Assembly (NCBI GenBank): GCA_022984795.1
Contig: JALIHJ010000017.1
Location: forward strand, 124,001 to 188,000
From: Fabrea salina
Lineage: Eukaryota; Ciliophora; Heterotrichea; Heterotrichida; Fabreidae
Length of the DNA stretch: 64,000 bases
Direction: 5' to 3'
Positions 3,972-59,202 of the stretch are shown here, piece after piece. Position 1 is the first letter of the stretch, and the number at the start of each line of letters is the position of its first letter. The translations under genes and the position numbers were made by a program. The notes beneath the pieces are model-generated. The model saw only the letters and a list, made by a program, of their open reading frames with translations, had not been told where the DNA came from and did no database searches.

Positions 3972-4008
3972 TATTTGTTTCAGAGAGTCGAGGACCCACA
4001 GATTATAA
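3972..4008. promoter_or_regulatory. 37-base divergent spacer between Rab and CCT6
   Basis: The whole space between two start codons facing opposite ways is 37 bases. It ends in GATTATAA directly before the CCT6 ATG. Any promoter elements for both genes must lie here or inside the coding sequences. Confidence 0.35.
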
Positions 4009-6356: not shown

Positions 6357-6378
6357 TATTGTTGGAATTATAAGTAAA
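6357..6378. promoter_or_regulatory. 22-base divergent spacer between membrane protein and Rab
   Basis: Only 22 bases of AT-rich sequence separate the two opposite start codons. The sequence is TATTGTTGGAATTA followed by TAAGTAAA, with no obvious box. Confidence 0.3.
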
Positions 6379-7011
6379 ATGGTAGATAAAAGAGAATAGT
6401 AAAGTCTAAACAGCGACTACTTGTTTAAAATAGTTCTCATAGGAGACTCTGGAGTAGGCAAGTCTTGTCTACTAATTCGTTTTGCGGATGAAACTTTTGT
6501 TGAAAACTACTTGACAACTATAGGTGTAGATTTCCGATTTCGGACTCTCAAAATAAACAACACCGAAATAAAACTCCAAATAGTAAAAGTTACTCAGTGG
6601 GACACGGCAGGCCAGGAAAGATTTAGAACTATCACTAGTTCTTACTACCGAGGAGCAGATGGAATCCTGGTTGTCTTCGACAAAACCAACAAGCAAAGCT
6701 TCGAGCACATTGATGACTGGATGGAAGAAGTCAACAAGTATGCTCACACCAACTCAGTTAAACTACTCATAGGCAACAAATGTGACATGAAAGAAGCAGT
6801 TGACTCCAAAACAGCTCTGAAAAAGGCCCAAAAACACGGAGTTCCGTACATAGAAACTAGTGCCAAAACTTCTTCAGAAGTAGACCAAGCTTTCCAGAAG
6901 ATCGCAGAAAAGCTGCTAGAAAGACGCTTGGAACAAAGTTCACGCAGCCCAAGCACAGTCAGAATAGACTTGCGTCCTAAACAACAAACTCAAAGCAACT
7001 GCTGTTCTTAA
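6379..7011 (+). CDS. Rab family small GTPase (Rab1-like), two 15-base introns
   Basis: Vesicle-traffic GTPase of 200 aa after splicing. Exon 1 (MVDKREY) joins at 6399-6413 to the rest, giving REYDYLFKIVLIGDSGVGKS, a standard Rab opening. A second intron at 6583-6597 stays open in frame and, if not removed, would insert five residues (VKVTQ) just before WDTAGQERF. Other Rabs have no insertion here, so it is surely spliced. The motifs TTIGVDF, WDTAGQERF, GNKCDM and ETSAK are intact, and the tail NCCS carries prenylatable cysteines. DYLFKIVLIGDSGVGKSCLL and the switch regions are close to Rab1, which acts in ER-to-Golgi traffic, but subfamily is inferred only. Confidence 0.92.
6399..6413 (+). 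other. 15-base intron 1 in the Rab gene
   Basis: GTAAAGTCTAAACAG splits a TAC tyrosine codon (TA|C). Unspliced, the reading frame meets TAG and TAA at once, so the upstream seven-codon exon can be used only if this piece is removed. Confidence 0.85.
6583..6597 (+). other. 15-base in-frame intron 2 in the Rab gene
   Basis: GTAAAAGTTACTCAG lies between an ATA codon and TGG of the WDTAGQ motif. It contains no stop and does not shift the frame, so it shows up only as a five-residue insertion in an invariant place of the Rab fold. Confidence 0.88.
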
Positions 7012-9975: not shown

Positions 9976-11301
9976 TTAAATACAGCTGTCTTGGTGGGTT
10001 ATTTTGGCAACATAGTCCTCAGATAAGTAAATGAACTTTTGGTAAGGAAGAACTTTGTCCCACAAAGCTAGGTGTTTAAATAGTGCTTTGTTGAGTTTTT
10101 TAAGTTCAGGTTTCAAGGAATCCAGGAACTCCTGGTTGTCGTAACCTTGAGTTAAGCTACTCATGATGAGTTTTTCTCTTTCGTGCACAAGTTTTAAAAT
10201 GTCTACAGTCAGTTTCCAGCCCTGCAGTAAGTTTTTGCACTCCTTAACTACTTCAGAGTGGTTCTGGCAACTGTAGAACTCCTTGATCAGCAATTCTTGT
10301 TTTAGTCTTTCTAAGGTGTTTTTAGCCTTTTTCTGGACTTCTGGATTTTGGGTTCTTTTTTTGAGTTTGAGTATTTCTTCTTCGGTGAAGAAGTTAGGGT
10401 CTTTGAGGAAGTTAAAACAAAGTTCTCCTTTGTTCACGTACTTGTCTAGCTCAGAGTTGTGCCAGTCAGGACCTATTGGTTTCTCCGGTCCAGAGAGACT
10501 GCGCACTTTTTGGTAGGCTGAACAAGACTTGGGTCTGTCGATGCTTGGAAAAATAGAGTTGTTTTCGTAAGTTGTATTGGTTTCTTTTTTAATCAGTTTA
10601 ATTCGGTTAGGAGGTTTGTTTTTGGAGTCAACTGTTTTAGTAAGGCGTTTAGGTCTGGACACAAACCCAGCGGAGTTTCTTTTTTTAAACGGGGAAGTAG
10701 AGGACCCGTCTTTGTGGGTAACTGGACTAGACTTTTTCCTTACTTGACTTTTAGTGACTGGAGCCTCTGCTTTTTGCCTTAAGTCTTTTAGCAAGCCAAT
10801 CCAGTTTTCTTTTTTGTGGAAAGGAGGCTTTAAGGGCGACTCTTTGCTTTGGGGTTTACTTCGCACTTCGTCAGCTGAAGTGGACTTTTTGGAACTGTCT
10901 TGGGAACGGTGGGTCGACTTTTTATTGCTCGAAGGAGGTTTGGAGTCTAGGTCTTCAGAACTGTCGTCTTCAATCATAATGCTGCTAGTGCTTTGGACTT
11001 CGAACAGGTCTTTGTCAGTTTTTTGAGGAGGGTTGGACTGCTCTAGTAGCTTTTTAAGGTTTTGAACTTCTTGGGAAAGTTGTTGTATAAGTAGGTCTTT
11101 TCCGTCGTCCAGAGTCTGAGTGCTTACGGAACAGAATGCTTTGCCAGGCAGAATGAAAGAAACATTAGGAGTTTCTTGGAGTCTGAAAGAAGGGGACTCT
11201 CTGTTAACAGACTCAACGTGTGCTAGGTCACCTGTTCTGCAAGTGTACTCAGTTGAAGAAAAAGACTCTTCTATCTCCTGTATTGAATTTTCACTGTCCA
11301 T
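9976..11301 (-). CDS. Unknown charged protein, low-complexity N-terminus and helical C-terminus
   Basis: A 441-aa protein with no family that could be named. Residues 1-110 are acidic and serine-rich with a predicted short coiled coil (LLIQQLSQEVQNLKKLLEQS). Residues 110-260 are basic and low in complexity (many K, S, P), typical of a disordered or microtubule-binding linker. Residues about 290-441 form an ordered helical region (FLKDPNFFTEEEILKLKKR, then ERLKQELLIKEFY and LALWDKVLPYQKFIYLSEDYVAKI). The layout resembles cytoskeletal or basal-body proteins, but that is inference only. Start ATG lies 44 bases from the divergent FAM135-like gene. Confidence 0.7.
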   Translation of the reverse strand: MDSENSIQEIEESFSSTEYTCRTGDLAHVESVNRESPSFRLQETPNVSFILPGKAFCSVSTQTLDDGKDLLIQQLSQEVQNLKKLLEQSNPPQKTDKDLFEVQSTSSIMIEDDSSEDLDSKPPSSNKKSTHRSQDSSKKSTSADEVRSKPQSKESPLKPPFHKKENWIGLLKDLRQKAEAPVTKSQVRKKSSPVTHKDGSSTSPFKKRNSAGFVSRPKRLTKTVDSKNKPPNRIKLIKKETNTTYENNSIFPSIDRPKSCSAYQKVRSLSGPEKPIGPDWHNSELDKYVNKGELCFNFLKDPNFFTEEEILKLKKRTQNPEVQKKAKNTLERLKQELLIKEFYSCQNHSEVVKECKNLLQGWKLTVDILKLVHEREKLIMSSLTQGYDNQEFLDSLKPELKKLNKALFKHLALWDKVLPYQKFIYLSEDYVAKITHQDSCI

Positions 11302-11345
11302 TTAGTTAATTACTTAACTGATTCTTAACTTAGATCAATATTTAA
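11302..11345. promoter_or_regulatory. 44-base divergent spacer before the FAM135-like gene
   Basis: AT-rich spacer with AACTGATTCTTAACTT and ending in ATCAATATTTAA directly before the plus-strand ATG. An AATATTTA-type string next to the start codon recurs at several genes here, such as HYDIN, RPA1 and the PA14 protein. Confidence 0.35.
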
Positions 11346-13424
11346 ATGTCTCTCCGAGCAATATTTGACATAGTGATCCACCTAGACAGTTTCCGGAACA
11401 TAGACTTGTTCCAACAAGGCATCTACTACCTTAACTTCCAGGTCTACCACCAACAAGGCGAACAAGTATTTTACGCAGCTCCTTACAACATACTGTGCAA
11501 AGAGCCCACAAATTCCAAAGACGTTCACTTAATCAGCCCTGCTCAGCCCGAAGAGTTAGGCTTTTCTTCAAGGTCTTTTTTGATTAAATACTGCGACGAA
11601 GAAATAGACATCAACGAGATTGGAGTGTTCCGGTGCGAAGTTGAATTAAGCCAAGATTTTGAAATCATTCCTATCACTGTAGAGGTTAACTTGATGTTCC
11701 ACGACTTCGTCGGAAGGATTGACCAAACTACTTTAGACAACTTCAGAAACTCCCCTCCTGGGTTTGTGTGTGCAAGTTCAACCCAAGTCCACCTTTGGAA
11801 CATTATGGAAGGAATCAACCAGTTCTGGCCGATTAACTTTGACGAGCTCCACACTTGTTTAGTGAACACTAGTTTCCACGGAGTCTTGATTGACTTTAGG
11901 TTCAGACCTAAGCCGCAGTTAAGTTTCGGACAAGAACAACTCCAAAGCTTAAAGCACACTTCTAAACCCCAGGAGTTAGACATATCAGAGTGCCTGGCAG
12001 AGTACTTGTTCCACCAAAAAAAAGAAGCTTCTACCCAAGAAATTGATTCGGTTTACAACTCCTACATCAAAAGAATGCTATTCATTCACAAAAAAAACAA
12101 ACAACTGATGGAGACTTGGACTCAAAAGTGCCCTAAAGTGCCTGGGTCTCCTAATGAAAAAACAAGTTTGCTTAGTGATAAGGTTGAAATTAGGGACACT
12201 AAAGTAGTTGCTGAGTTGATTCTGCAAGAAATCCAAGAAGTAGCTGTTTTGATGCACAAGTTCGTGGCAACTTTCATAGACTTCATTTACAACTCACACA
12301 AAATAGTGAATGCTCACTTGCAAGCAGAGTTTAACGAAACACTCAAAGACAAACTAGGAGAAAGTATATTCAGAGACGTTAAGTCTGTTAAAGAGTTCGC
12401 ACTGACTTCTGACAGCGAAATAGGCAACAGGCACAGAGTTGTTTCTAGAACTGTAAGGAAAAACCCTTACTACAAAAACATAACCCCCATGCCTGCCATG
12501 CAAGTAAACTACTTCCCTGAACGCAAGGAGCATCCGATTTTGTTCCACGACGTAGTGACCAAGAACTCTGATACTAGTTTGTCTCTGACTTGGGACCCTA
12601 AGTGTTTCAGTTACATACAAAACAACACTGGAGGAAAGCACCTGTACGTTCTAGTCCACGGTTTCCAAGGAAACGCTTTTGACATGCGGATGATGCGCAA
12701 CTCGATTCTGATGCTCAAGCCTAACGCTTTGATTCTATGCTCACACATGAACGAAGGGGAAACTGACGGAGACATCAGAGAAATGGGAATAACACTTTCC
12801 CAAGAGGTAACTAACTACATCCTGGACTTTTGTCCTAGAGACCTAAAAAAGATTTCTTTCATAGGGCATTCTTTAGGAGGCCTTATAATTAGAGCTGCAC
12901 TTCCTCACTTAGTGCAGTACTCAGACAAGATGCACACTTTCATGACTTTTAGTTCTCCACACTTAGGCTACATGTACAACTCTTCTAAGTTAGTAGACGC
13001 TGGAATGTGGTTCTTGAAGAAGTGGAAAAAAGTAAAGTCACTCAAACAACTCACGATGGCTGACAGTTCTGTGCTTGAGGAAACCTTTTTGTACCAGTTG
13101 AGTTCGTATCCAGGTTTGGAGTTCTTTAAGTACGTTGCTTTAGTGAGTTCTATGCAAGACAACTACTCACCTTTTGAGTCTTCAAGAATAGAAGTAGGAC
13201 CTAAAGCGTCAACTGACCCCAACAAAGGAAGACTGTACATAAAGATGGCTACTAACATCCTTTCAAGTCTTGCAGTTAATAAACTTTACAGACTGGATGT
13301 TAATTTTAAGATCCAAAAAAAGAACTTCGATAACTGGATAGGAAGAGCTGCGCACATAAAGATGCTTGAATGCGAAACTACTATGAAAATGATAATGTAC
13401 GCCTGTCCTGAGTTAATTGAGTAA
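11346..13424 (+). CDS. FAM135-like alpha/beta-hydrolase
   Basis: A 692-aa protein with the two-part build of FAM135A/B. The N-terminus (residues 1-190) is beta-rich and begins IVIHLDSFRNIDLFQQGIYYLNFQVY, as in the conserved N-terminal domain of that family. The C-terminal lipase-type hydrolase (residues about 430-690) starts LYVLVHGFQGNAFDMR, has the nucleophile elbow GHSLGG with the serine near residue 508, then FSSPHLGYMY and DNYSPFESSRIEV, which carries the late conserved acid. FAM135 proteins belong to the DUF676 putative serine esterases; substrate is unknown, with links to membrane traffic reported for FAM135B relatives only weakly. The catalytic serine, aspartate and histidine candidates all appear to be present. 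Five bases from the convergent next gene. Confidence 0.85.
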   Translation: MSLRAIFDIVIHLDSFRNIDLFQQGIYYLNFQVYHQQGEQVFYAAPYNILCKEPTNSKDVHLISPAQPEELGFSSRSFLIKYCDEEIDINEIGVFRCEVELSQDFEIIPITVEVNLMFHDFVGRIDQTTLDNFRNSPPGFVCASSTQVHLWNIMEGINQFWPINFDELHTCLVNTSFHGVLIDFRFRPKPQLSFGQEQLQSLKHTSKPQELDISECLAEYLFHQKKEASTQEIDSVYNSYIKRMLFIHKKNKQLMETWTQKCPKVPGSPNEKTSLLSDKVEIRDTKVVAELILQEIQEVAVLMHKFVATFIDFIYNSHKIVNAHLQAEFNETLKDKLGESIFRDVKSVKEFALTSDSEIGNRHRVVSRTVRKNPYYKNITPMPAMQVNYFPERKEHPILFHDVVTKNSDTSLSLTWDPKCFSYIQNNTGGKHLYVLVHGFQGNAFDMRMMRNSILMLKPNALILCSHMNEGETDGDIREMGITLSQEVTNYILDFCPRDLKKISFIGHSLGGLIIRAALPHLVQYSDKMHTFMTFSSPHLGYMYNSSKLVDAGMWFLKKWKKVKSLKQLTMADSSVLEETFLYQLSSYPGLEFFKYVALVSSMQDNYSPFESSRIEVGPKASTDPNKGRLYIKMATNILSSLAVNKLYRLDVNFKIQKKNFDNWIGRAAHIKMLECETTMKMIMYACPELIE

Positions 13425-29927: not shown

Positions 29928-32471
29928 TTAATGTTCTAAAAAGCTTTGAATGGAGTCGTCTGTAACAGGTTTGAGGATGAAGTGGTCCATGCCTGCTTCT
30001 TCGCATTTAGAAGCTGCATTTTCGTCGCCTGAAAGTCCGCATATAAAAGTTCTAGGGTAGTTTTTGTCCTTTTCAATTTGCCTTATTCTTTTTGTGGCTT
30101 TAAGTCCGTCTAGTCGAGGCATCATTATGTCCATAAAGATCACTCTGTACTTGTAGCCTTGTTTGGCGTACTCTTCAAATATCTTGATAGCTCCAAACCC
30201 ATCCTTGGCGTAGTCAGCATTTGAAGGTTTGGTGTTGTCTAAAATAGCTTTTAGGGCTTCTCTTTGCATGGCAACGTCGTCAACAATCAGAACCTTAAAA
30301 GTGTTTAGTTCAAAGCTCAAAATTCCGTTTTCTTTTGGGGAGTGTTTGAAGACTTTGGTTCTTTTAGAGTCTGTAGCTGAGTAGTCAATATTTTGGCAAG
30401 GGTTATTTTTGCTGCTTGGAGGTCTTTTTAGGTTTTTGAAAAACTTGTTTTTAACAGAGCGTGGGTTTTCTTTTATTTGAACTGTGAGGGAGTGGATGAG
30501 GAGTTCTGAGAGCGAATTCAAGTTTGTAGGCGACTCAGTTTCAAGCTCATTTATGAATTCCTCGTCTGAAGAGCAAATACTTACACTCTCAGAACTTAAA
30601 AGGTTCCTTTTGTCTACAAACACTGGACGCACCAGTCCGTTCATAAGAGACCTAACTGGACTGACCTTTTGGGAAAAAACGTTTTCAACTGAAAGAGTTT
30701 TGGGCTGTGGAACAGGAACTTTTTTCTGGGGCCTTAAGTCGTCTACTAAGGCTGGCTTCCATTTGATACTTAAAGGTGTTTCGTTGATGCATTCGTGGTT
30801 AAGTTTGATGAGTTTGGACTTAGATTGCTTTTCAGCCCTTGTGACAGGAAGAGACACTACAATAAGAACCTTCCCCTCGCCTGAGGTGGGGGCGTATATG
30901 TCTGAAATGAACCCTTTCAAAAGACACAAAGTAGTGTCGAACACTGCAAGTTCTATTCCGTACTTGTCAGTGATTTGCATGATTTGGTGCAAGTCTCTTC
31001 TTTTAGAGTTGTTTTTGCGGATTTGGAACAGAGTGTCTAGCATGCCTTGACTGACTCTGTAAGTAGTGAAACTGATTTTGTACAGGATGTTGAGTTCTTT
31101 GTCTACAGCTGAGTTTACTTCGACTACCAAAGAAATCTCAGTTTCTTTTTTGGCGTTGTTTACAGCAAAGCCCACTAAGGTGTGCACAACGTGGTTGTGC
31201 AGGGCTTTGTCGCTCTCTACTGATTTAGGGATTCCTTGGTCCCGGGTGTAGTTGATTCCTATATGTTTTACACTTGACTTGACAAACCAAATGTCTATTA
31301 CGTTCTGGACTTCAAGGTTGATGTCGAAGTAATTCTTCCTCAACTCAAACCTGCTTAAAAAGTGAGACTGCAGAAGAAGAATACTTAGCATTCTGTGAAA
31401 CATAAACTCGAAACTCATTATGTGTTCGGGCTCCATTGGTTGTTTGTACTCAAAGAGTTGTGAGTACTGTCTGCTTATTCCATGCACTGTTTCAAGTTGT
31501 TTTTTGTACTGGTCAGTTACCAAAAGCAGTCTTGAAATAAAGTTACTTACATCCATGCAAGTGCACTTTACACAGTGCTTGCCCATCCAATTGCAGATCT
31601 GAGCATTTAGCAAGCACCCTAAGTTAGAAGTTTCTTCTGGAAGCAGTGTAAGTGGTGGCTTTTTAAAGAATATTTCTTCTTCGCCTTTGATGCCTTTCAT
31701 AGCATTTGAAATCAAAGAGGTCAGTAAGTTTCTATGGGTTTCTTCAAAAAGCTCTTCGAACTTTCCTTGATTAAGGAGCTCAGCTGAGGACTTGAGAGTC
31801 AGCACTAAGTTTCTAGCTTGTTTGTTGTAGTGCAAGATTCTGTGGTCAGGGCTAACGATGAATATAGCATCCAAAGAGTTAGTAAATAGGTTTTTGTACA
31901 AAGAGTCTGATTTCTTAAAGGAGTAGTACAGTTGCCACAGGTCCCTGTAATCCTTTTCAAAGCATGCCGAAAGCACAGTGTAAGTAAGAACTGCCAGAAT
32001 TATGCCTGTTAGTTCTAAGTCACACAAAAAGTACATACACAAGACCTCTACAGTTCCACTGACGAAGTAAATAATCCAGCTTTGTGAAAGGAAAAAGTTC
32101 AGCACAAATCCTGGGAAGCAGGCTCCAAAGCACTCAAGTAAGTTGCCTTCTTCTAAGTTTGTCAGAATGAAAATGTTCAAACTGACTTCTGCTAAAATTC
32201 GCTGCAGGTGTTGGCTTCTGTCTCTAAAAATCAGCAAAATGATAATGCTAGGAATCACTACAGAAGCTACAACGTACTGGTTCTTCTCAAGCACCAAGTA
32301 AGCCGAACCCACTAAAAGAATCAGCAAGTAATAAAGACTCAAAGAAGTTTGGTGAAACCTAAAAGACTCCTTTTGATACTTAAGCTCTGTTATTCTGTCT
32401 AAGTAAAAAAGCAGTCTATGCTGAACAAAGCTTCTGTCACCTGTGAACAAGTTCACTCTACTTTTGGACAT
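29928..32471 (-). CDS. Hybrid sensor kinase-like membrane protein with receiver domain
   Basis: An 847-aa protein with the outline of a ciliate hybrid histidine kinase. About five or six membrane helices fill residues 35-180. A PAS-type sensor region follows (DAIFIVSPDHRILHYNKQAR) at about 195-320. The middle part, where the His-phosphotransfer and ATPase domains should lie, is degenerate. No H-box with the usual histidine was found, the N-box survives only as VGFAVNNAKKE, and the glycine loops are missing. The C-terminal receiver (residues about 728-846) is complete: VLIVDDVAMQ, phospho-acceptor aspartate in FMDIMMPRLDG, GLSGD and lysine in ILKPV. It may have lost autokinase activity and serve as a membrane sensor-receiver. 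ATG 32471 (MSKSRVNLF) is preferred over an ATG that overlaps the divergent ABC gene. Confidence 0.8.
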   Translation of the reverse strand: MSKSRVNLFTGDRSFVQHRLLFYLDRITELKYQKESFRFHQTSLSLYYLLILLVGSAYLVLEKNQYVVASVVIPSIIILLIFRDRSQHLQRILAEVSLNIFILTNLEEGNLLECFGACFPGFVLNFFLSQSWIIYFVSGTVEVLCMYFLCDLELTGIILAVLTYTVLSACFEKDYRDLWQLYYSFKKSDSLYKNLFTNSLDAIFIVSPDHRILHYNKQARNLVLTLKSSAELLNQGKFEELFEETHRNLLTSLISNAMKGIKGEEEIFFKKPPLTLLPEETSNLGCLLNAQICNWMGKHCVKCTCMDVSNFISRLLLVTDQYKKQLETVHGISRQYSQLFEYKQPMEPEHIMSFEFMFHRMLSILLLQSHFLSRFELRKNYFDINLEVQNVIDIWFVKSSVKHIGINYTRDQGIPKSVESDKALHNHVVHTLVGFAVNNAKKETEISLVVEVNSAVDKELNILYKISFTTYRVSQGMLDTLFQIRKNNSKRRDLHQIMQITDKYGIELAVFDTTLCLLKGFISDIYAPTSGEGKVLIVVSLPVTRAEKQSKSKLIKLNHECINETPLSIKWKPALVDDLRPQKKVPVPQPKTLSVENVFSQKVSPVRSLMNGLVRPVFVDKRNLLSSESVSICSSDEEFINELETESPTNLNSLSELLIHSLTVQIKENPRSVKNKFFKNLKRPPSSKNNPCQNIDYSATDSKRTKVFKHSPKENGILSFELNTFKVLIVDDVAMQREALKAILDNTKPSNADYAKDGFGAIKIFEEYAKQGYKYRVIFMDIMMPRLDGLKATKRIRQIEKDKNYPRTFICGLSGDENAASKCEEAGMDHFILKPVTDDSIQSFLEH

Positions 32472-32486
32472 TTTATAATTACTAAG
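32472..32486. promoter_or_regulatory. 15-base divergent spacer between sensor kinase and ABCG genes
   Basis: TTTATAATTACTAAG is all that separates the two opposite start codons. A TATAATTA core is present, but there is no room for two ordinary promoters and leaders. Confidence 0.35.
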
Positions 32487-34265
32487 ATGGCTAGTCATGG
32501 AGTGGATTTAATCTGGAAGGACTTAAAAGTTCTGGCACCTCTTTCGAAAACTGAAAAAAAAGAAAGGAGAAAAGTAGGACAAAGTCTAGACCCCAAAGTC
32601 ATCCTTGAACCCACTTCTGGAGGGTTCAAAGCAGGAACTTTTACTTCGATCCTTGGACCTTCTGGAAGTGGAAAAACTACTTTTTTGAATTTCTTGTCCA
32701 ACAGAACCTTTTACATGAAGAGCTTAGAAGTTTCAGGCAGCATCTATATCAACGGAACTCCTCGTTCCGAAGTAGACTTCAACAGCATTACTGGGTACGT
32801 GATGCAAGATGACGTGATTCTAGAAAGTTTCACAGTAAGGGAAGCTCTTGAGTTTACTGCCAAACTCAGACTCCCTGAAGACAAGTGGGAGTCCAGAGTC
32901 AAACAAGTCATTTCTGACCTTGAACTCCATAACTGCGAAAACAGCTACGTAGGAGGAGTCTTCAGGAAAGGCATTTCAGGCGGCGAAAAAAAAAGAGTTT
33001 CCATAGCCATTGAGTTGCTTACTGACCCCACTGTACTGTTTCTTGACGAGCCAACAACAGGACTCGACTCCTACAACGCAGAACTCCTTGTAGCAAAACT
33101 CAAGGAACTCGCCCAGAATAACGGTGTCACTGTAATTGCAACAATTCATCAACCCAACTCTTTTATCTTCAGTCAATTCGATAAGTTGATTCTACTAGCT
33201 GGGCAAACTATACTTTTCCACGGAGATGCACACGACGCCCTGGACCACTTCGCAAACGTGGGTTACCCCAACCCCCAATTCAGCAACCCTGCAGAACACT
33301 TTTTGAAAATCATGAGTCCAACTGACAACAAGTTCTTAGAAAGAATAGAGGTTCTGAAAAATGCTGCTCCCAAAGAACAAACAAGTATAGAGCAAAAACC
33401 CCTCCCCGAAACCATCAAGCCCAAAGAAGCAGGGTTCTTTTTAGAGTTCAAGCAACTCGGAAAAAGGTCTTTGACCAATTTTATTCGCAACAAAATCTTG
33501 TTTTTAGCTAAACTAGCTGCAAATATTTGCTTTGTATTGGTAGTTTACATGGCCTTTTGGCAAATTGGCGATGACACAGATTCAACGTCAGTTACAGACA
33601 GAGCAGGGGTCATTTTCTTTGTGTTTGTGTACATTGCATTCTTGGCAGTCAACGCTTCAGGGGCTTACGCAGAAGAAAAACTAATGTTCATTCGAGAACA
33701 AGCCAGCAAAACTTACAGTCCTTTAGCTTACTACCTCAGCAAAATAGTTTTTGAGTTACCTATAGACTTACTGGTTTCAGCTATAGTGGCTGTGCTGGTC
33801 TACGCAGGAGCAGGTCTTAGTTTCGAAAACTCTGACCAAATCTTTATATTCATTCTGATCACTATGGTAGTGAACTTTTCAGCACGTGGATGGGGTAACT
33901 TCTTGATCATTACAATTCCTAACTTGCAGGCTGCCATTGCTGCAGCTCCTTTCTTTTTGATTGTGCAGTTGTTGTTTGCAGGGTTCTTCGTGAACTTTGA
34001 TAAGATCCCAGTGTACTTAATTTGGCTAGAGCACCTTTCGATCTTTAAGTACTCTTGGTCTGCAGCTATGCAAAACGAATTCGACACTTGGGACCAGTCA
34101 GAATGCTCAGAAAGTACTCCATCACCTTACTGCGACCCTATTGACTTCTACAACATCACCATAGGCATGTGGACTAACATTCTAATACTAGCTTGTTTGG
34201 CAGTTGGAGTGCATATGCTTTCATACCTAAGTTTATACCGTTTGGCAAGGAAGTTTAGGAACTAA
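32487..34265 (+). CDS. ABCG-type half ABC transporter
   Basis: Membrane exporter subunit of 592 aa with the reverse order (ATPase then membrane domain) of the White/BCRP subfamily. The ATPase contains Walker A GPSGSGKTT, Q-loop YVMQDD, signature ISGGEKKR, Walker B VLFLDEPTTGLDS and the switch histidine in ATIHQP. The ABC2-type membrane domain follows from about residue 315, with about six helices (ILFLAKLAANICFVLVVYMA, VIFFVFVYIAFLAV, PIDLLVSAIVAVLVYAG, IFIFILITMVVNF, AAAPFFLIVQLLFAGFFV, ILILACLAVGVHML). The cysteine-bearing loop before the last helix (ECSESTPSPYCD) matches the external loop of ABCG proteins. Half transporters work as dimers; substrate (lipid, sterol or pigment) is unknown. 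The start is ATG 32487 (MASHGVDLIWKDL). Confidence 0.93.
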   Translation: MASHGVDLIWKDLKVLAPLSKTEKKERRKVGQSLDPKVILEPTSGGFKAGTFTSILGPSGSGKTTFLNFLSNRTFYMKSLEVSGSIYINGTPRSEVDFNSITGYVMQDDVILESFTVREALEFTAKLRLPEDKWESRVKQVISDLELHNCENSYVGGVFRKGISGGEKKRVSIAIELLTDPTVLFLDEPTTGLDSYNAELLVAKLKELAQNNGVTVIATIHQPNSFIFSQFDKLILLAGQTILFHGDAHDALDHFANVGYPNPQFSNPAEHFLKIMSPTDNKFLERIEVLKNAAPKEQTSIEQKPLPETIKPKEAGFFLEFKQLGKRSLTNFIRNKILFLAKLAANICFVLVVYMAFWQIGDDTDSTSVTDRAGVIFFVFVYIAFLAVNASGAYAEEKLMFIREQASKTYSPLAYYLSKIVFELPIDLLVSAIVAVLVYAGAGLSFENSDQIFIFILITMVVNFSARGWGNFLIITIPNLQAAIAAAPFFLIVQLLFAGFFVNFDKIPVYLIWLEHLSIFKYSWSAAMQNEFDTWDQSECSESTPSPYCDPIDFYNITIGMWTNILILACLAVGVHMLSYLSLYRLARKFRN

Positions 34266-41878: not shown

Positions 41879-41883
41879 TTAAT
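41879..41883. promoter_or_regulatory. 5-base gap between two divergent start codons
   Basis: The sequence TTAAT is all that separates the ATG of the membrane-protein gene (minus) from the ATG of the coiled-coil gene (plus). Both leaders and both promoters must overlap the other gene's coding sequence, unless one true start lies further in. Confidence 0.5.
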
Positions 41884-43135
41884 ATGGAAGAGTCTTACTT
41901 AGAAAAGCTTGAAAACCAACTAGAAGTTGCTAAGTCGAAAGAAGAAGTATCTAGATACCTCTTCCAAAACCTAATCAAGTACCTTGAGAACCAGTCCTCA
42001 GAACAGTTTTTTGTAATTGCAAACTAGGCAGTCCCTAGATGACCTTAAAGTTCAGTTCCAAACAAGCTTTGACAAAGCTAGAGAAGTCTACGAAACCCAA
42101 CTCAAAGAACTCAAGAACCAACTAAACGAGTTCAAAAGTTCCAGTGAAGAAGCTAAACTACGCCTGAAAGAACAAGACCTTTACTCTGAGTTTGAAGTTT
42201 CAAAAAACAAACAAAAGATTAAAACCCTAAAAGAAAAAGTAGCTTTGCTGGAAGACAAAATTAAGTTTTACGACACCGAAATTCTGTAAGATTTAATCAG
42301 ACACAAAAAAGACTCCCAAATCAGAAAACTCAAACAAAAAAACCAAGGTTTAAAAGACAGAATTGAAAGCATAAAAGAAGACTGGGACTCCCAAGTAAGT
42401 GAAATCAGGAACCAAACTGAGTCAACTATTGAAGAACTCAAAAGAATCCACAAAGAAGAGGTTGAGTACCTAAAGTCACTACTAGACACCCAACTTCCAA
42501 TCCCAGACTACGAGTTCCAGGTTGAAGACAAAATCACCAAACTAAAAACAGAATTTGAAAACTTAAAAAACCACCTGTTTTGCAGTGACAGGAAAATAGA
42601 ACGCGTTAGAAGAGACAGAAGGATGCTAGAAGTTGCTGGGCTTACTAAAGAAAAACTCAGAACTCTTGTAAAGGAAATAAACAACTTAAAAGAAGCACTC
42701 CAAGCTAAGCAAAAAGACATTGACTACTACAAGAACTTAGTGAAGCCAGAGAACCTTGATATCTCAACAGAAAGCAAAATAAAAATATTCACCCCCACCA
42801 CGGACTCCTCTAACATCTGCAGTTCTCGGAAAAGTGTCAGCTTTCTAGAAACTTCTTTTGAAGACTCTTTGTTGTGCAGAAACCTCAACTGTTCTTCTAA
42901 GCTCAAAAACTTACAAGCTGAAAACGAAGAGCTGCTCGATAAGATTTGCAGGGTGGATGAAGAAAGGTGCGTTGCTAAGCATTCTGAAAAAGTCATTCTA
43001 AGCGAACTTAAGCAAACCAAGTTCAAACTAGGAATAGTTGAACAAGAAAAAAGAGAACTTTTAACTCAGCTGCAAGAGTTGGCTGGGAAAAAAAACCTTG
43101 CAAGTCTTAAAGGACTTAAGCTATGTAAATGGTAA
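41884..43135 (+). CDS. Coiled-coil protein with two or more mini-introns
   Basis: A protein of about 405 aa, almost wholly coiled coil (K/E/L/Q-rich heptads such as YETQLKELKNQLNEF and IKTLKEKVALLEDKIKF), with an interruption near residues 285-320 that is serine-rich. Exon 1 (MEESYLEKLENQLEVAKSKEE) ends at 42012. The next join needs either a 19-base intron (42013-42031) or a 15-base intron (42013-42027) plus a one-base error, because only lengths of 1 mod 3 keep the frame. A clean 15-base intron at 42286-42300 follows, splitting a leucine codon. A cysteine-containing coil closes the protein. It could be a centriolar or cortical scaffold; no family was recognised. Confidence 0.75.
42013..42031 (+). 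other. Probable intron of atypical length (15 or 19 bases)
   Basis: A canonical-looking 15-mer GTAATTGCAAACTAG is followed by GCAG. Splicing at the first AG leaves the downstream frame off by one, while splicing at the second AG (19 bases in all) joins QFF to SLDDLKVQF in frame. Either the intron is 19 bases long or the assembly has one extra base here. Confidence 0.6.
42286..42300 (+). other. 15-base intron in the coiled-coil gene
   Basis: GTAAGATTTAATCAG splits a CTA leucine codon and contains an in-frame TAA if kept. Removal joins two coiled-coil segments in the same frame. Confidence 0.88.
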
Positions 43136-46793: not shown

Positions 46794-48236
46794 TTAATTA
46801 GGAGCTTGTTTAGACTTCGCAGGAAAATTGAACTGCGTAAAAGACTTTTTGTGCTTGGAACGGTAAAAATCTAAGTTCCCGATTTTATGAGTTTGGTTGC
46901 CGGACTCTTTCATGCCGCGTACGTGGATATTCACAAAGGGTTGTTTTTGGGTGCGGACTTTAGGTTTTTTCTTGACTAAGCCAATGAGCAACTTGAGTCT
47001 TTGGTTAGAAATTTTGGAACTAATAGGAGTGGACAAAGAAGTTTTGCGCTTAGCAGTGTAGTTGGACTTCGGAGACCTTGTAACTGAGAAATTGAAGCTT
47101 TTTTGCTTTGGAGGTGATAAACTTGAGTTGGGCTTTGCACTAAGAATTTCTAGGCTCAGTGGACTTTTTGAAGATGGCGTTGTGAGTTCTTGGAGTTGCT
47201 TTTGTTTGTTGAAAGTTGCTCTTCTGTAGTCAATTTTACTCATAATGCGGTTTTGAATGAATTCTTTTGCTTCTTCAGTTTTTAAAACCTGGTTTTTAAA
47301 GTTTTCTTTAGAAGTGACTAGAAGCACTCCAGTTTCAGATATGCACTGGCACGAGTAAATCCTTGAAATATTTCCCATGATGATATCTTCGTCTCCAATG
47401 AGTTCGTTAGTTACTAAGGTTGCAATGGGGTACTTTTTAGAAAAGCTCCTTGACTTGATTGAGTGAGGGGATGAAATTGTTGAGTTAAGCTTTACAGACT
47501 GCCACAACTGGAACTCGCCTTCTTGGATTATGTAAATGCAGTCAGCAAGGTCTCCTTCTTTGAATACGTAAGATTTTCTGGGGTATTTTTTAGTTTTAAA
47601 GTAAAAAGATAGGTTCCGAACTTGGTTGTTTGTGGGGTTTTTGTTAACTGAAAAGCTTTTAAGGAAAGTAGCTATGGTTTTAAACTTGGTTTGGAAAAAT
47701 TCATCGTAAGCTTCTAAGTAGTCCTGGTTCCTTATATAGGCTATGTGGCACTCGTTTAGACACTTTAAAGTTGAATCTTGAGTCATGTAAGTCTTTAAAG
47801 CTTTTTCGTCAATGCAGTCACCAGTTTCGAACGTTGTAATTACTTGGTTGGGTTTTTTAAAGCTTTTTTTGTATACTGTTACTTGGCCACTTAAAACTAC
47901 GTACTTCCTTTCGGACAGTTGTTTTTGAGGAATCAAAATAGGCCCGGGAGGGTAGAATTCGTAGAAGAAAAACTTTAGGCATTCTGAATGGAAGTCTTCG
48001 CTTGTTTCTTCTTCAAGGCTTTTAAAGAACTTTAAGTCTTTAGTGTAGCTATAGACAGAGCTAAGCAGACTGATAGTTCTTTCTCTGATTGGGAGTGACA
48101 AAATGCATCCGATTTTTTCTAACTGACTCAATTCACTGGAACTTTCTTTGTAAGGAGTGAGTCTGTTTCTGATTTCGGGCAACTTGCTTGGTGAAGGCAT
48201 AGTTAGTGTTAAAGGGGTCCCTGTATTTCTGCTCAT
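46794..48236 (-). CDS. Protein with two cyclic-nucleotide-binding-like domains
   Basis: A 480-aa protein. Two CNB-type beta rolls can be read: one at about residues 95-195 (YPPGPILIPQ, KYVVLSGQVTVYKKS, TFETGDCIDEKAL) and one at about 215-325 (YPRKSYVFKEGDLADCIYII, EGEFQLWQSV, ELIGDEDIIMGNISRIYSC). The phosphate-binding cassette of the second keeps G-D-E and an arginine (SRIYS) but lacks the F-G-E-x-A-L norm, and the first lacks it altogether, so binding of cAMP/cGMP is doubtful. The C-terminal 150 residues are basic and serine-rich. No kinase or channel domain is attached. Similar stand-alone CNB proteins are common in ciliates. Confidence 0.75.
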   Translation of the reverse strand: MSRNTGTPLTLTMPSPSKLPEIRNRLTPYKESSSELSQLEKIGCILSLPIRERTISLLSSVYSYTKDLKFFKSLEEETSEDFHSECLKFFFYEFYPPGPILIPQKQLSERKYVVLSGQVTVYKKSFKKPNQVITTFETGDCIDEKALKTYMTQDSTLKCLNECHIAYIRNQDYLEAYDEFFQTKFKTIATFLKSFSVNKNPTNNQVRNLSFYFKTKKYPRKSYVFKEGDLADCIYIIQEGEFQLWQSVKLNSTISSPHSIKSRSFSKKYPIATLVTNELIGDEDIIMGNISRIYSCQCISETGVLLVTSKENFKNQVLKTEEAKEFIQNRIMSKIDYRRATFNKQKQLQELTTPSSKSPLSLEILSAKPNSSLSPPKQKSFNFSVTRSPKSNYTAKRKTSLSTPISSKISNQRLKLLIGLVKKKPKVRTQKQPFVNIHVRGMKESGNQTHKIGNLDFYRSKHKKSFTQFNFPAKSKQAPN

Positions 48237-48270
48237 AATTATTGGCAGCTACTGAAATGGAAACTTTTAG
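48237..48270. promoter_or_regulatory. 34-base divergent spacer before the adenylate kinase gene
   Basis: Spacer between opposite start codons. It holds an out-of-frame ATG at 48257 followed by GAAACTTTTAG, so ribosomes would have to pass over it or start there and stop early. Confidence 0.3.
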
Positions 48271-48981
48271 ATGAAGTTTACTAGGTTGCTTATGATGGGT
48301 CCTCCGGGCGTAGGAAAGGGCACCTACGCAAGACTGTAAGTTCCATTCAGACTTTCGAAGGAACTCAAGATACCTTTAGTAGTTCTTGGGGATGAGATCC
48401 GCCAAATAGCTTCTCAGGAAAAAGTAAACCCAGTTTACGAAGACATTGCTCATCTAGTAGGCAAGGGGGCTCTTATAAACGACGGACTTGCCTGGGCAAT
48501 TCTTGCTAGGAAGATGCTTACAGTAGACACATCACAGGGATTCCTTATAGACGGGTACCCCAGAACCTTAGAAGAGGCTGAAATCATGGATTTGATGGGG
48601 TTCCCCTATGACCTCATGATAAGTCTAAGGCAAAAAGAAGAGGTGCTCGAAGAACTTGTACTGAAGAGAAGGTCTTGTTCGCAGTGCGGGGCTAGTTTTA
48701 ACTTAGCTCAAATCGAAGTAGAGGGATACAAGTTCCCAACTAAGTTTCCTAAAAAGAAAGGCATTTGCGACGACTGTGGAGGGAAGTTAGTTACTAGAAA
48801 CGATGACACTAAGCGCGTGTTTAAAAAACGACTTTTTGAGTTCAGAGTTAAAACAGAACCTTTAGAAGGCTTTTTTGAAGAGAAAAACAAACTGTTCACC
48901 TACGATATTTTTAAAGGAATTGATGACTTTCCTGAGTTTTTAGACAAACTTAAACAGAAGCTAACTAATGAACTTAATTAA
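48271..48981 (+). CDS. Adenylate kinase with Cys4 zinc LID
   Basis: Nucleoside monophosphate kinase (ATP + AMP to 2 ADP) of 231 aa after removal of a 15-base intron at 48336-48350. P-loop GPPGVGKGTYARL lies at residues 9-21, with the intron inside its last leucine codon. Then come GDEIRQIA (NMP-binding), GFLIDGYPRTLEEAE, LVLKRRSC and RNDDTKRVFKKRL. The LID carries four cysteines (CSQC and CDDC, about 33 residues apart), the zinc-binding form typical of Gram-positive bacteria and some protists and unlike the zinc-free LID of animal AK1/AK2. Length fits the long-LID class. ATG 48271 gives a normal start (MKFTRLLMMGPPG). It overlaps the ankyrin gene by 21 bases at the 3' end. Confidence 0.9.
48336..48350 (+). 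other. 15-base intron in the adenylate kinase gene
   Basis: GTAAGTTCCATTCAG splits a CTA leucine codon (CT|A). Unspliced reading gives a TAA inside the P-loop region; splicing restores TYARLLSKELKIPLVVLGDE. Confidence 0.92.
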
Positions 48982-55593: not shown

Positions 55594-56145
55594 TTAGCTG
55601 AGTGACTTTAAGTACTTGTCTAGTGTTGGAGAAGACTCAATGAAGCGGTGAACAAATCCAAGCAGTTTGGGGAACTGCTCCAAGGTCTCTGAGTCCGAAA
55701 CAAAGTGGTTGTAAAGCAACTCAAAAACTTCAAAGTCCGCCCTCGTCAAGCAGTTCCCCACAAACCACTCTGTGCCTTGTTTGTTTTGAGTCAGTCTGCT
55801 TTCAATCATTTTAAGTTTTGCAAGAATTTGGGGAGTTAATTGGTCTTTAGGAAAGTGCTCCAGCAACAGTTCTAAGTCAGCTTTCAAGTCACACACACTC
55901 TCAACTAAGTACACTTCCAATGGGTCAATTGCTGAGTACTCGAACCTGTCACAAACGTAACGAGCAATTGCAGTTCTTTTAGAAAGCTTGCGTGCGTCCA
56001 TCTCCAGAAAAGGCAACTCCACACCTGAAGCAGCTTTGTCTGGGTAAGTCTGGTCACTAAAAGGAGTTCCTCTATAGTGAAAGATCAACTTTACCAAGTC
56101 AACCTTAGTTGGGTTCTCTAGTGAATGCAACTTAATTTCTCTCAT
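55594..56145 (-). CDS. GST-fold protein with altered glutathione site
   Basis: A 183-aa protein with the two-domain glutathione S-transferase layout: thioredoxin-like N-terminus (ELPFLEMDARKLSKRTAIARYV at residues about 43-64) and helical C-terminus (TEWFVGNCLTRADFEVFELL). In sigma-class GSTs the catalytic tyrosine sits where this protein has Ser8, and the Q-S pair that grips glutathione just before the AIARY helix is Lys-Arg here. Sequence is therefore GST-like but probably not a usual sigma transferase. It is shorter than most GSTs (about 200-220 aa). Fifteen bases from the divergent WD40 gene. Confidence 0.75.
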   Translation of the reverse strand: MREIKLHSLENPTKVDLVKLIFHYRGTPFSDQTYPDKAASGVELPFLEMDARKLSKRTAIARYVCDRFEYSAIDPLEVYLVESVCDLKADLELLLEHFPKDQLTPQILAKLKMIESRLTQNKQGTEWFVGNCLTRADFEVFELLYNHFVSDSETLEQFPKLLGFVHRFIESSPTLDKYLKSLS

Positions 56146-56160
56146 CTAATTCAAACTAAT
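56146..56160. promoter_or_regulatory. 15-base divergent spacer between GST-like and WD40 genes
   Basis: Only CTAATTCAAACTAAT separates the two start codons. No promoter element can be assigned within it. Confidence 0.35.
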
Positions 56161-59100
56161 ATGGAAAAGTCGTTTGAAAGGATCGGGGACTCCTACGGAG
56201 TGAACGAGTCAGATATTTTCTCTAAGTTCGCTAAACTGTTCTCTAATAAGTCTGCCTTAAAAGCTTCTAACCACCTCTCACTGCTATCTCAAAACGACGA
56301 AGATGACTTAGAAGACATTGACCAGCCTGAATACTTCCAAAAAGAACCTCTGCAGCCTTCCAGTTTCGTTTCCAACAGTGCATTTGCCAAAAAAATCAAG
56401 CAAAACGTGTACAAACCAGAAACTCCTGAAGAAGAAGAAACCATTGAAATGCAAATGCAGTCTAGTCTCCAAAAGTTAGACTTAAACCAAATCATAAACT
56501 CAGGCAGACTCATGAGACTCAAACTAGACATGGAAAAGTTCCCTGACCAAGAACTCGGACTGGAGGACTTCATCATAGTGATGAAAGAATGCATCAACGG
56601 AAAGATTCAAATAGACGAAGAAGTCCTTATTTCGGACCTCGTGGACCAGTTCCACAGAATCGACATCCACGGCACTGGGAAGATTAACTTCGACATGTTC
56701 AGTTCCTTTTTGATAGAACAAGAAATCATGGCTGAAATGGGCAACGAAAGGGCACTTCTCTACAAACCTAGTGAATTAACTGACAACTCACGCCACGACA
56801 ACTACATTGACAAGATGTTTTACTACCCTGCTATTGACAAACTAGGAGTTATGGAACAAAACATGCGTGCACTCAAAATCTACAACCCCAGTACGCTTAA
56901 ACTCGAGAACTGCTTGTTCGTTAAGAACGGAATTGCAATAGCTTCTGAATATATTCCTGAGTATGAAAAGCTCATCTTAACTTCTTCAGACAAGTCTATG
57001 CTGGTGTTCGACTTGGGTTCTTTTGCTCTCGAAAAAAGGATAGTTACTCCTGAGTCTCAGCACACCATGCACTGGTCCCACTCGCACCAAGTTTTGTTTT
57101 CAGCAGGGATGGATGGCAAGATTTACGGATGGCTCATTCAGAAACTTTTAAATTACAAAGAACAAGAAGTACCCTACTCAGAAGTACTTGCTAAAGGCAT
57201 GCCTTGGTCTGAAAGAACTGAGTGTATATTTTACATCGTGGAACTCACGGGTATGGAGCAAATTGCAGCAGCCAGTGCTGACCAAAAGATAAGACTTTGG
57301 GACATAAAGTGGGAGGGTAACAGAAAACCCAAAAAGGTTTTATGCGGGCACACTAAAGCTGTGAGGTACTTGGCTTACTCCCAAAGGTATAACTTGTTGG
57401 TTTCTTGTGGGTTTGAGTTCGACGCTTTGGTTTGGAACCCTTATGTGTCTATTCCTATTTGCCAGTTAAAAGGCCACGAAGCACCCCTGTGTGGAATAGA
57501 GTGCCCAGAAGCCAATCCAACTATCATAACGGCAGACTCAAAAGGAATCGTAAAGGTTTGGAATATAAAAGACTACTCTTTGCTGCAAACTTTTTACGTG
57601 TCTAACTTTGTGCACCTAAAAGCTATTAAATGCATTCCTAAGCACAGAAAGCTCTTAGCAGCTTCGAGAAGACTCCAGGTTTACGAGTATGACAAACCCT
57701 TTGTGCCGGAGTTAAGTGACGACTCGCCTATATTTTGTGCTAGGTACAGTCCGCAGCAGTTCCAAGTCTTCATAGCTGGCCAGCACTCTATAAAGGTTTG
57801 GAACGCACTTACCGGGCGTCCCATGAAGTTTATAGCAGACATTTTTTCGAGTGAAATAACTTGTATGATCCTTGACGAAACTGAACGTAAAATAGTAGTG
57901 GGTGACCACAGCGGAAGGATTCTTATGATAGACTCACTTACAGGAGTAGTGCTGAAGGAGTTCTGCAGCCACAATGCAGAAGTTACAGGCTTGATCTACG
58001 TAGAAAAAGACAGGACCTTGATTTCTTGTTCCTGGGACAAAAAAGTGCTCATCCACAACGACAACCTTAAAGAAGGCAAAGAAGAAAAGAGAAGCGGAGT
58101 CGTTAGAACAGTAGCAAATGCACACACTTCAGACATCATTTGTGTGGACTACTCTGGGGAACTGGACATGTTTGTAACTGGGTCTAGTGACTGCTCTGCA
58201 AAGGTTTGGGACTACGAAACTTGCAAGCTAGAAGGAGTTTTGCTAGGCCACAAGTCTGATATTTTAGTGGCTAAGTTTCTGCGGCCTTTTCCTTTGCTGC
58301 TTTTGAGTGACCAAAGTGGCAACCTAAGCATTTGGGGTGTGAATTGCAGGGGTTTAGCTAAGTTTCAGTGCTTAGTGAAGTGGAAAAACATGCACACTCT
58401 TGAAAAAACAGCTACAATCACCTCTGCTTCTTACGTTTACCAAAAAGACACTCTCCAACTCGTTTTGGGTGACGAAAAAGGAACTGTCAGGGTGTTAGAC
58501 TTAACTGAACTAGTGCTGGAACTAGAGTTAACTATTGAAGCAAGCACTCCTCGCAACGCTGAACACAGAAACCCCACTCGGTTAGTAGACGTAGACATGG
58601 CAGAAATAACTACTAAGCACACTCACGACCGCAGGAACTCCCTAAGTTCTATCAACTCAGGTGAGCCCAAGTCCTCTAACGAAGTTGAGTTTGAATCTAA
58701 ACCCTTGAAAGAAGACTTTTACGTGAAACAAAAAGTCCAGTGGAAAGCCCACTCAGACTCAATCAAGTACATTGCTGTAGTTCAAGAACTAGAAAACCTA
58801 GCTTTGTTTTCAACAGGCCTCGACAAAATGGCTTACTTGTGGTCTTTCGAAGGACAACTCCTAGGAACACTTAAGCAGGGCAGCAGAGTTAACTCTGAGT
58901 GGAGCTTCCAAATAAGTGAAAGCACCCAAAGCAAAAAGAAACAAGAAGTAACTAGGTTCCAGAAAAAGCTCCAGAAAATAGGCCAGAAAAAAACATTTGG
59001 GTCAGGCATAATGGACGAAAGGAAAAGCGTGTTCCAGGACCTGATCACAAACTTGAATGACAAGAACCCCAAAGAACTAACAGCTTCAGAAATGATCGAA

Positions 59101-59202
59101 GACATCAACAAAATAGAAAAACTACTTCCTAAAGACCGACTCTACGAAACCATGAGGGACTCAAGGACCTTCAGACCTAAGAAGTCAAAGAAGCAATCTT
59201 AA
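56161..59202 (+). CDS. EF-hand / WD40 protein, CFAP337 (WDR49)-like
   Basis: A 1,013-aa protein. The N-terminus has helical EF-hand-like units at about residues 115-200 (LGLEDFIIVMKECING, then DLVDQFHRIDIHGTGKINFDMFSSFLIEQ, where the loop D-I-H-G-T-G-K-I-N-F-D lacks several calcium ligands). At least ten WD40 repeats follow (residues about 230-760, for example IRLWDIKWEGN, ALVWNPYVSIPICQLKGHE, AKVWDYETCK), then one more near 890 and a basic C-terminal coil. The order matches animal WDR49/WDR64 and the ciliate CFAP337, an axonemal protein found near the base of radial spoke 3. The start at 56161 (MEKSFERIGDSYG) is the first good ATG. Axonemal role inferred from family. Confidence 0.8.
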   Translation: MEKSFERIGDSYGVNESDIFSKFAKLFSNKSALKASNHLSLLSQNDEDDLEDIDQPEYFQKEPLQPSSFVSNSAFAKKIKQNVYKPETPEEEETIEMQMQSSLQKLDLNQIINSGRLMRLKLDMEKFPDQELGLEDFIIVMKECINGKIQIDEEVLISDLVDQFHRIDIHGTGKINFDMFSSFLIEQEIMAEMGNERALLYKPSELTDNSRHDNYIDKMFYYPAIDKLGVMEQNMRALKIYNPSTLKLENCLFVKNGIAIASEYIPEYEKLILTSSDKSMLVFDLGSFALEKRIVTPESQHTMHWSHSHQVLFSAGMDGKIYGWLIQKLLNYKEQEVPYSEVLAKGMPWSERTECIFYIVELTGMEQIAAASADQKIRLWDIKWEGNRKPKKVLCGHTKAVRYLAYSQRYNLLVSCGFEFDALVWNPYVSIPICQLKGHEAPLCGIECPEANPTIITADSKGIVKVWNIKDYSLLQTFYVSNFVHLKAIKCIPKHRKLLAASRRLQVYEYDKPFVPELSDDSPIFCARYSPQQFQVFIAGQHSIKVWNALTGRPMKFIADIFSSEITCMILDETERKIVVGDHSGRILMIDSLTGVVLKEFCSHNAEVTGLIYVEKDRTLISCSWDKKVLIHNDNLKEGKEEKRSGVVRTVANAHTSDIICVDYSGELDMFVTGSSDCSAKVWDYETCKLEGVLLGHKSDILVAKFLRPFPLLLLSDQSGNLSIWGVNCRGLAKFQCLVKWKNMHTLEKTATITSASYVYQKDTLQLVLGDEKGTVRVLDLTELVLELELTIEASTPRNAEHRNPTRLVDVDMAEITTKHTHDRRNSLSSINSGEPKSSNEVEFESKPLKEDFYVKQKVQWKAHSDSIKYIAVVQELENLALFSTGLDKMAYLWSFEGQLLGTLKQGSRVNSEWSFQISESTQSKKKQEVTRFQKKLQKIGQKKTFGSGIMDERKSVFQDLITNLNDKNPKELTASEMIEDINKIEKLLPKDRLYETMRDSRTFRPKKSKKQS

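Follow-up and report, generated by a model that had tools for sequence, protein, structure and literature searches.

Divergent start codons 5 to 44 bp apart in a compact ciliate genome

Introduction

Two genes on opposite strands begin only 5 bp from one another near position 41,879 of the DNA described here, and the question is where the promoters and leaders of genes so arranged could be located. The stretch of DNA that was analysed (the window; 64 kb, C12:124001-188000) lies in a genome of 18,328,466 bases in 103 contigs, which on its sequence features is probably the macronucleus of the heterotrich ciliate Fabrea salina. The macronuclear genome of Fabrea salina, reportedly described by Zhang et al. 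in 2022, is said to measure 18.35 Mb and to have shrunken intergenic regions. If the DNA is from this species, the organism is free-living.

Genome setting and gene prediction

Genes were predicted over the first 288 kb of the contig (C12:1-288000) with a Viterbi gene finder that used codon-pair scores trained on C12, allowed 15-nt introns and disallowed overlapping genes. A total of 187 genes were returned, 161 of which scored at least 30, and 92% of the DNA was genic. The preliminary description of this DNA, which had placed it in a compact ciliate genome, is supported in this respect. Predicted introns were 15 nt long in 29 of 42 cases, mostly of the form GTAA...AG. In the same stretch, 109 long non-overlapping ORFs spanned 76% of the sequence and were ended by all three standard stop codons (TAA 80, TAG 20, TGA 9). 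The left end of the contig consists of somewhat irregular CCCTAACA telomere repeats. A TBP gene encoding two TBP repeats is present in the genome; the protein appears to carry the usual motifs and is conventional-looking. Rfam at gathering scores and ARAGORN detected no structural RNA or tRNA in the 64-kb window.

Two observations concern individual ORFs of the window. Two listed convergent ORFs, 61683-62834 and 62820-63449, share 15 bp at their 3' ends; the gene finder, in which overlaps are forbidden, closed the former at 62664. At 15500-28873 a single ORF of 4457 codons was found with no predicted intron, and its product is HYDIN-like in appearance.

Seven divergent pairs in the window

The most closely spaced pair of start codons in the window consists of the following features.

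41879..41883: 5-bp spacer, TTAAT, separating the divergent start codons
40802..41878, minus strand: gene of 358 aa with its ATG at 41878 (gene finder, coding bias)
41884..43135, plus strand: gene that is coiled-coil-like by eye (gene finder score 164, coding bias)
41884-42012, plus strand: exon 1 of the coiled-coil-like gene
42013 (19 nt, doubtful) and 42286 (15 nt), plus strand: predicted introns of the coiled-coil-like gene

Coding bias starts at the first codon in both genes. The first 60 nt of the genes had coding scores of +10.2 and +15.8, compared with -9.6 and -6.4 for the 60 nt upstream of the starts. An in-frame TAA immediately precedes the minus-strand ATG at 41878, no in-frame ATG lies upstream of the plus-strand start at 41884, and the next Met codons are 84 and 705 nt inside the genes. 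Neither protein matched a Pfam family, the minus-strand protein having been scanned whole and the plus-strand protein over its first and third exons. Only the self-match was obtained when paralogues of the minus-strand protein were sought in its own genome.

The coiled-coil-like gene requires an intron of 19 nt at 42007-42031. Alternatively, the same interval can be read as an intron of the typical 15 nt, GTAATTGCAAACTAG, if the T6 run next to it differs in length by 1 nt, which is possibly an assembly error.

Six further pairs are arranged in the same way.

32472..32486: 15-bp spacer, TTTATAATTACTAAG, with TTATAA inside
29928..32471, minus strand: protein with a C-terminal response-regulator domain (PF00072 at residues 727-843)
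32487..34265, plus strand: ABC transporter, ABC domain at residues 42-191 (PF00005; exon 1 scanned)
33587, plus strand: predicted 15-nt intron of the ABC transporter (gene finder)
56146..56160: 15-bp spacer, CTAATTCAAACTAAT
55594..56145, minus strand: glutathione S-transferase-like gene (PF14497)
56161..59202, plus strand: WD40-repeat protein (PF00400 and others)
6357..6378: 22-bp spacer, TATTGTTGGAATTATAAGTAAA, with TTATAA inside
5613..6356, minus strand: gene of 247 aa, no Pfam match (gene finder)
6379..7011, plus strand: Rab1-like GTPase; first exon 20 nt, 15-nt intron at 6399-6413
48237..48270: 34-bp spacer (91 bp under the gene finder's starts)
46794..48236, minus strand: cyclic-nucleotide-binding protein (PF00027); start at 48236 weakly supported, alternative at 48200
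48271..48878, plus strand: presumed nucleoside-kinase-like gene with P-loop GPPGVGKGT; gene finder start at 48292
48336, plus strand: 15-nt intron of the nucleoside-kinase-like gene
3972..4008: 37-bp spacer with GATTATAA at its end, directly before the ATG
3378..3971, minus strand: Rab-family GTPase (PF00071)
4009..5604, plus strand: chaperonin CCT zeta subunit (structure-chain alignment)
11302..11345: 44-bp spacer with TTAATTACTTA inside
9976..11301, minus strand: gene of 441 aa, no Pfam match
11346..13424, plus strand: FAM135-like serine esterase (PF05057, PF12394)

The seven start-to-start gaps given in the preliminary description were all exact on recomputation from the sequence: 5 bp (41878 minus/41884 plus), 15 bp (32471/32487), 15 bp (56145/56161), 22 bp (6356/6379), 34 bp (48236/48271), 37 bp (3971/4009) and 44 bp (11301/11346). 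One feature expected of bidirectional promoters, two divergent genes whose starts lie close together, is found here.

The Rab1-like protein contains five residues, VKVTQ, before WDTAGQERF that are absent from Rab1. The insert corresponds to exactly 15 nt and is probably a second 15-nt intron that is in frame and free of stop codons. Introns of this kind escape gene finding based on ORFs.

Spacing between genes of different orientation

Gaps were compared among the 145 of 186 neighbour pairs that were kept after exclusion of the 26 of 187 calls scoring below 30. Divergent gaps had a median of 47 bp (37 pairs; bootstrap interval 22-63), tandem gaps a median of 27 bp (69 pairs; interval 15-42) and convergent gaps a median of 14 bp (39 pairs; interval 8-21), negative gaps being unable to come out of a gene finder that forbids overlaps. 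Divergent gaps were longer than convergent gaps (P = 1.8e-4) and longer than tandem gaps (P = 0.038). Therefore 5' ends cost more room than 3' ends, and the spacer holds part of what they need.

Within the divergent class, 13 of 37 gaps were 30 bp or less and four were 7 bp or less (3, 5, 6 and 7 bp). Gaps of 7 bp or less were found in 17 of 69 tandem and 13 of 39 convergent pairs; stop-to-ATG distances of this size are frequent in tandem pairs. The suggestion in the preliminary description that these divergent pairs are special is not supported, as the spacers of tandem and convergent pairs are even shorter. The medians are roughly additive, each 5' end accounting for about 20-24 bp and each 3' end for 7 bp, and divergent pairs therefore look no more compressed than other pairs; mean gaps, with values up to 400 bp included, fit additivity poorly (70.3, 37.5 and 31.1 bp for divergent, tandem and convergent pairs). 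To judge from this one contig, the tight divergent pairs most likely form the lower tail of a distribution of spacing that extends over the whole genome. Extrapolation from the 13 pairs in 288 kb of one contig gives about 830 divergent pairs of 30 bp or less in the genome.

Sequence signals upstream of start codons

Upstream of the 161 starts, the A/T fraction was 0.87-0.91 at positions -4 to -1, and A alone made up 0.69 at -2 and 0.66 at -1. A conserved AT-rich signal is therefore present directly at the start codon, where it may also be translation context. The hexamer TTATAA occurred within -30..-1 of 27 of the 161 starts, compared to a mean of 9.7 in column shuffles, and none of 500 shuffles reached 27. 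It was found at 18 of 82 divergent-class starts, where counts lack independence in that one palindrome between two genes is scored for each of them, and at 9 of 79 tandem-class starts (mean 5.4; 35 of 500 shuffles reached 9). The excess is not limited to the first 30 bp, as TTATAA was also found at -60..-31 of nine starts compared to 3.8 expected (11 of 500 shuffles reached 9).

Other AT-only hexamers were counted upstream of the same 161 starts. TAATTA was likewise in excess (18 vs 7.7), and TTTAAA was in excess only at -30..-9 (10 vs 4.0) and beyond (8 vs 3.6). No excess was seen for AATATT, ATATAT, TATATA, ATTAAT or AAATTT, the last of which was found at 4 of 161 starts compared to 6.6 in shuffles. 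Column shuffles do not preserve differences in AT content among upstream stretches; with TAATTA and TTTAAA also in excess, part of the TTATAA signal may reflect such differences.

TTATAA was present in 10 of 26 divergent spacers of 70 bp or less, compared to 2.2 in dinucleotide shuffles, an enrichment that we judge marginal after correction for all hexamers if it is regarded as an unbiased search. Per kb of spacer, it occurred 3.9 times in divergent, 2.4 times in tandem and 1.7 times in convergent pairs. Genome-wide, TTATAA flanked by CAT and ATG (CAT..TTATAA..ATG) was found 421 times, compared to 73 times with inverted flanks; for TTTAAA, a control of the same composition, the counts were 248 and 142. 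The genome contains 26 copies of the exact palindrome CATTTATAAATG. Four of these were inspected; by the gene finder, one is a real divergent pair, whereas in the other three a start was called on just one side. Among five pattern matches in C12, called starts were present at both ends in two and at one end in three. Since three of the four palindromes were one-sided, the genome-wide counts show nearness to starts more than they show pairs, and the case for TTATAA as a shared divergent element from these counts is weakened.

The real pair among the four, which was verified, has a 6-bp spacer consisting of TTATAA alone. Its genes encode an Arp3 homologue, whose alignment with Arp3 begins at residue 4 of both proteins, and a protein in which a PWWP domain spans residues 7-55. 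TTATAA is by no means general at starts (27 of 161) and is absent from the 5-bp spacer TTAAT and from the 3-bp spacer AAT. An in-frame TAA immediately before the ATG was found in 47 of 161 genes, compared to 30 expected from column frequencies, and CAT-TTA-TAA-ATG is the product of two such TAA-ATG contexts. The TTATAA excess may therefore partly reflect translation context.

Position of the promoters

Ordinary promoters plus leaders had been said not to fit such pairs, and this claim is sound: spacers of 3-22 bp are too small for two of them. Even the layout of Halteria nanochromosomes, with a TATA-like box some 17 bp upstream of the TSS and a 5' UTR of about 18 bp (PMC7858049), would not fit, as the distance from box to ATG is then about 35 bp and spacers here can be under 20 bp. 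Three ways out had been proposed. Near-leaderless transcripts and a single point serving both directions, here an AT-rich one, fit best, because A/T is strongest directly before the ATG and the palindromic TTATAA is in excess. The third, control signals in the coding region of the neighbour, is unsupported by a weak test of composition in 26 and 69 genes, described below.

The reading that we prefer, and to which we would give an even chance, is that minimal AT-rich or TATA-like promoters lie about 0-30 bp from the ATG, are followed by very short leaders, and overlap or are shared in divergent pairs. Each gene would carry its own minimal A/T-rich, often TATA-like promoter at roughly this distance, and transcription would begin a few bases from the start codon or at it. 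In a divergent pair, the two promoter stretches would overlap or be the same DNA, and a palindromic core such as TTATAA would read identically in both directions. The transcription machinery could cover the first codons of the neighbour physically, with no sequence signals needed there. The spacing is compatible with 5' UTRs of under about 20 nt.

Core promoters might instead lie within the coding region of the divergent neighbour, with transcription starting tens of bases inside it and antisense leaders through which the two mRNAs overlap head to head. In 4 of 37 pairs the spacer, at 3-7 bp, is too small for a box at a Halteria-like distance, and the persistence of the TTATAA excess at -60..-31 also points in this direction. 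However, signals in the first codons of the neighbour were sought by comparing codons 2-21 of 26 genes in divergent pairs of 30 bp or less with those of 69 tandem genes, and at the low power of this comparison the two sets were alike in AT, AT3 and codon score. The AT fraction was 0.591 in both (P = 0.86), and the codon score was 7.12 compared to 5.43 (P = 0.08), a difference opposite to that expected of distortion. In addition, the greater length of divergent than of tandem and convergent gaps would be needless if signals normally lay inside neighbours. Promoters inside the neighbour are a serious but less likely possibility; minimal promoters next to the ATG are preferred because the first codons are undistorted and divergent gaps are the longest.

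A stronger version of the minimal-promoter reading, which we regard as improbable, is that a spacer of 3-7 bp, sometimes TTATAA alone, is a complete bidirectional promoter, and that a conventional TBP on a symmetrical site gives rise to leaderless mRNAs both ways in several hundred pairs.

Reliability of the start codons

If the true start of a gene were an internal Met or lay in another exon, the real gaps would be larger in some pairs. The gene finder recovered six of the seven pairs of the window at identical starts. At the 34-bp pair it favours 48200/48292, a gap of 91 bp, and the minus-strand start at 48236 is weak, with a coding score of -2.3 as far as the next Met at +36. Upstream in-frame ATGs exist in three pairs (32472, both sides; 56146, plus strand; 3972, minus strand), but their use would make the genes overlap, and the stretches concerned score +0.8 or less. 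Among the 20 divergent pairs of 50 bp or less in C12:1-288000, the next Met is at least 60 nt inside both genes in 16; in the other four it is less than 60 nt inside one gene. In the 44-bp pair, an in-frame stop immediately precedes both ATGs and the next Met codons are 324 and 348 nt inside.

Homology reaches near the first residue in several products. CCT zeta residues 1-526 align with residues 1-526 of a solved CCT zeta chain, residue 5 of the Rab-family GTPase (3378..3971) with Rab8A residue 6, and the alignment of the Rab1-like GTPase begins at residue 5, equivalent to Rab1B residue 5; the Arp3 homologue described above behaves in the same way. In the best PDB rows for the glutathione S-transferase-like protein, residue 43 is matched with residues 53-54 of GST A1; a single row, 3fr3, matches residue 12 with residue 13. 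Pfam was also run on seven proteins of tight pairs beyond the window, four of them represented by residues 1-200. Three have a domain that starts no later than residue 25 (EF-hand at 7, kinesin at 11, Bax1-I at 24), in three others the domain starts deeper in the protein (EF-hand at 94, DHHC at 97, Ras at 57), and no domain was found in the seventh. Misassigned starts are on this evidence a very improbable explanation.

The least credible alternative, that unit-length mRNAs are cut from long primary transcripts (polycistronic, trans-spliced) so that local promoters are unneeded, draws on the operon-like spacing of the tandem genes 7 bp or less apart but was rejected on the mix of orientations, which is near random (40 ++, 29 --, 37 -+ and 39 +- pairs in C12:1-288000) with same-strand runs mostly of one or two genes (42 and 26 of 85 runs), and it leaves divergent starts unexplained.

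Comparison with other compact genomes

In the literature covered, which did not include the Fabrea and Stentor genome papers, nearly all work on bidirectional promoters of ciliates and on start sites in heterotrichs appears to concern other organisms. Among ciliates, Blepharisma stoltei is a heterotrich whose macronucleus likewise has short intergenic and untranslated regions, introns mainly of 15 and 16 bp and CCCTAACA telomere repeats; unlike the genome analysed here, it is 41 Mb in size and reads UGA as tryptophan (PMC9942806). A canonical genetic code is given for Fabrea salina (PMC10553269). The claim in the preliminary description that such tightness is extreme even among compact ciliate genomes was set against a single figure, for an oligohymenophorean ciliate, whose median intergenic distance of 156 bp and median 5' UTR of 65 bp (PMC10553269) are clearly looser. 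Short 5' UTRs in ciliates are a stated assumption of a paper on Loxodes (PMC11441545). Halteria is alike in being a ciliate with a TATA-like box and an extremely short 5' UTR; it differs in that most of its chromosomes carry one gene, with hardly any divergent neighbours (PMC7858049).

The closest precedents are found outside the ciliates. In Encephalitozoon cuniculi, 5' UTRs are under 7 nt, a promoter signal lies directly before the ATG, and for the head-to-head genes S16 and L13, with a spacer of 35 bp, a palindromic AAATTT has been put forward as acting on both (PMC2803860). It differs in being a parasite, in its motif (AAATTT plus a CCC-like element) and in a spacer larger than the 3-22 bp seen here (PMC2803860); AAATTT is not in excess here (4/161 vs 6.6). 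In Giardia, initiation sites are AT-rich and somewhat symmetrical, 5' UTRs go down to 1 nt, and mapping by TSS-seq has shown that transcription can, in some cases, begin in both directions from a single nucleotide between neighbouring genes (PMC3792122). Two-way transcription in Giardia was unrelated to the symmetry of the initiation consensus, and the authors suggest that much two-way activity may be unidirectional (PMC3792122). The TBP of Giardia lacks key phenylalanines (PMC12209930), whereas the TBP encoded here looks conventional.

The spacing in the window is a further, rather tight case of the compaction known from Giardia and E. cuniculi, and work on microsporidia and Giardia has already established the greater part of the idea. 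What it would add is a eukaryote that has introns and whose TBP looks conventional, with hundreds of divergent pairs to bound the size of the promoter. The preliminary description had proposed these loci as a system for learning how minimal a eukaryotic promoter can be. They are useful in so far as both the minimum size of such a promoter and the ability of a symmetrical TATA-like site to serve two genes become measurable, but E. cuniculi and Giardia already serve as model systems.

Codon usage

Codons of the form NAT (TAT, CAT, AAT, GAT) are strongly avoided in favour of NAC in C12:1-288000. The four boxes concerned are exactly those read by queuosine tRNAs.
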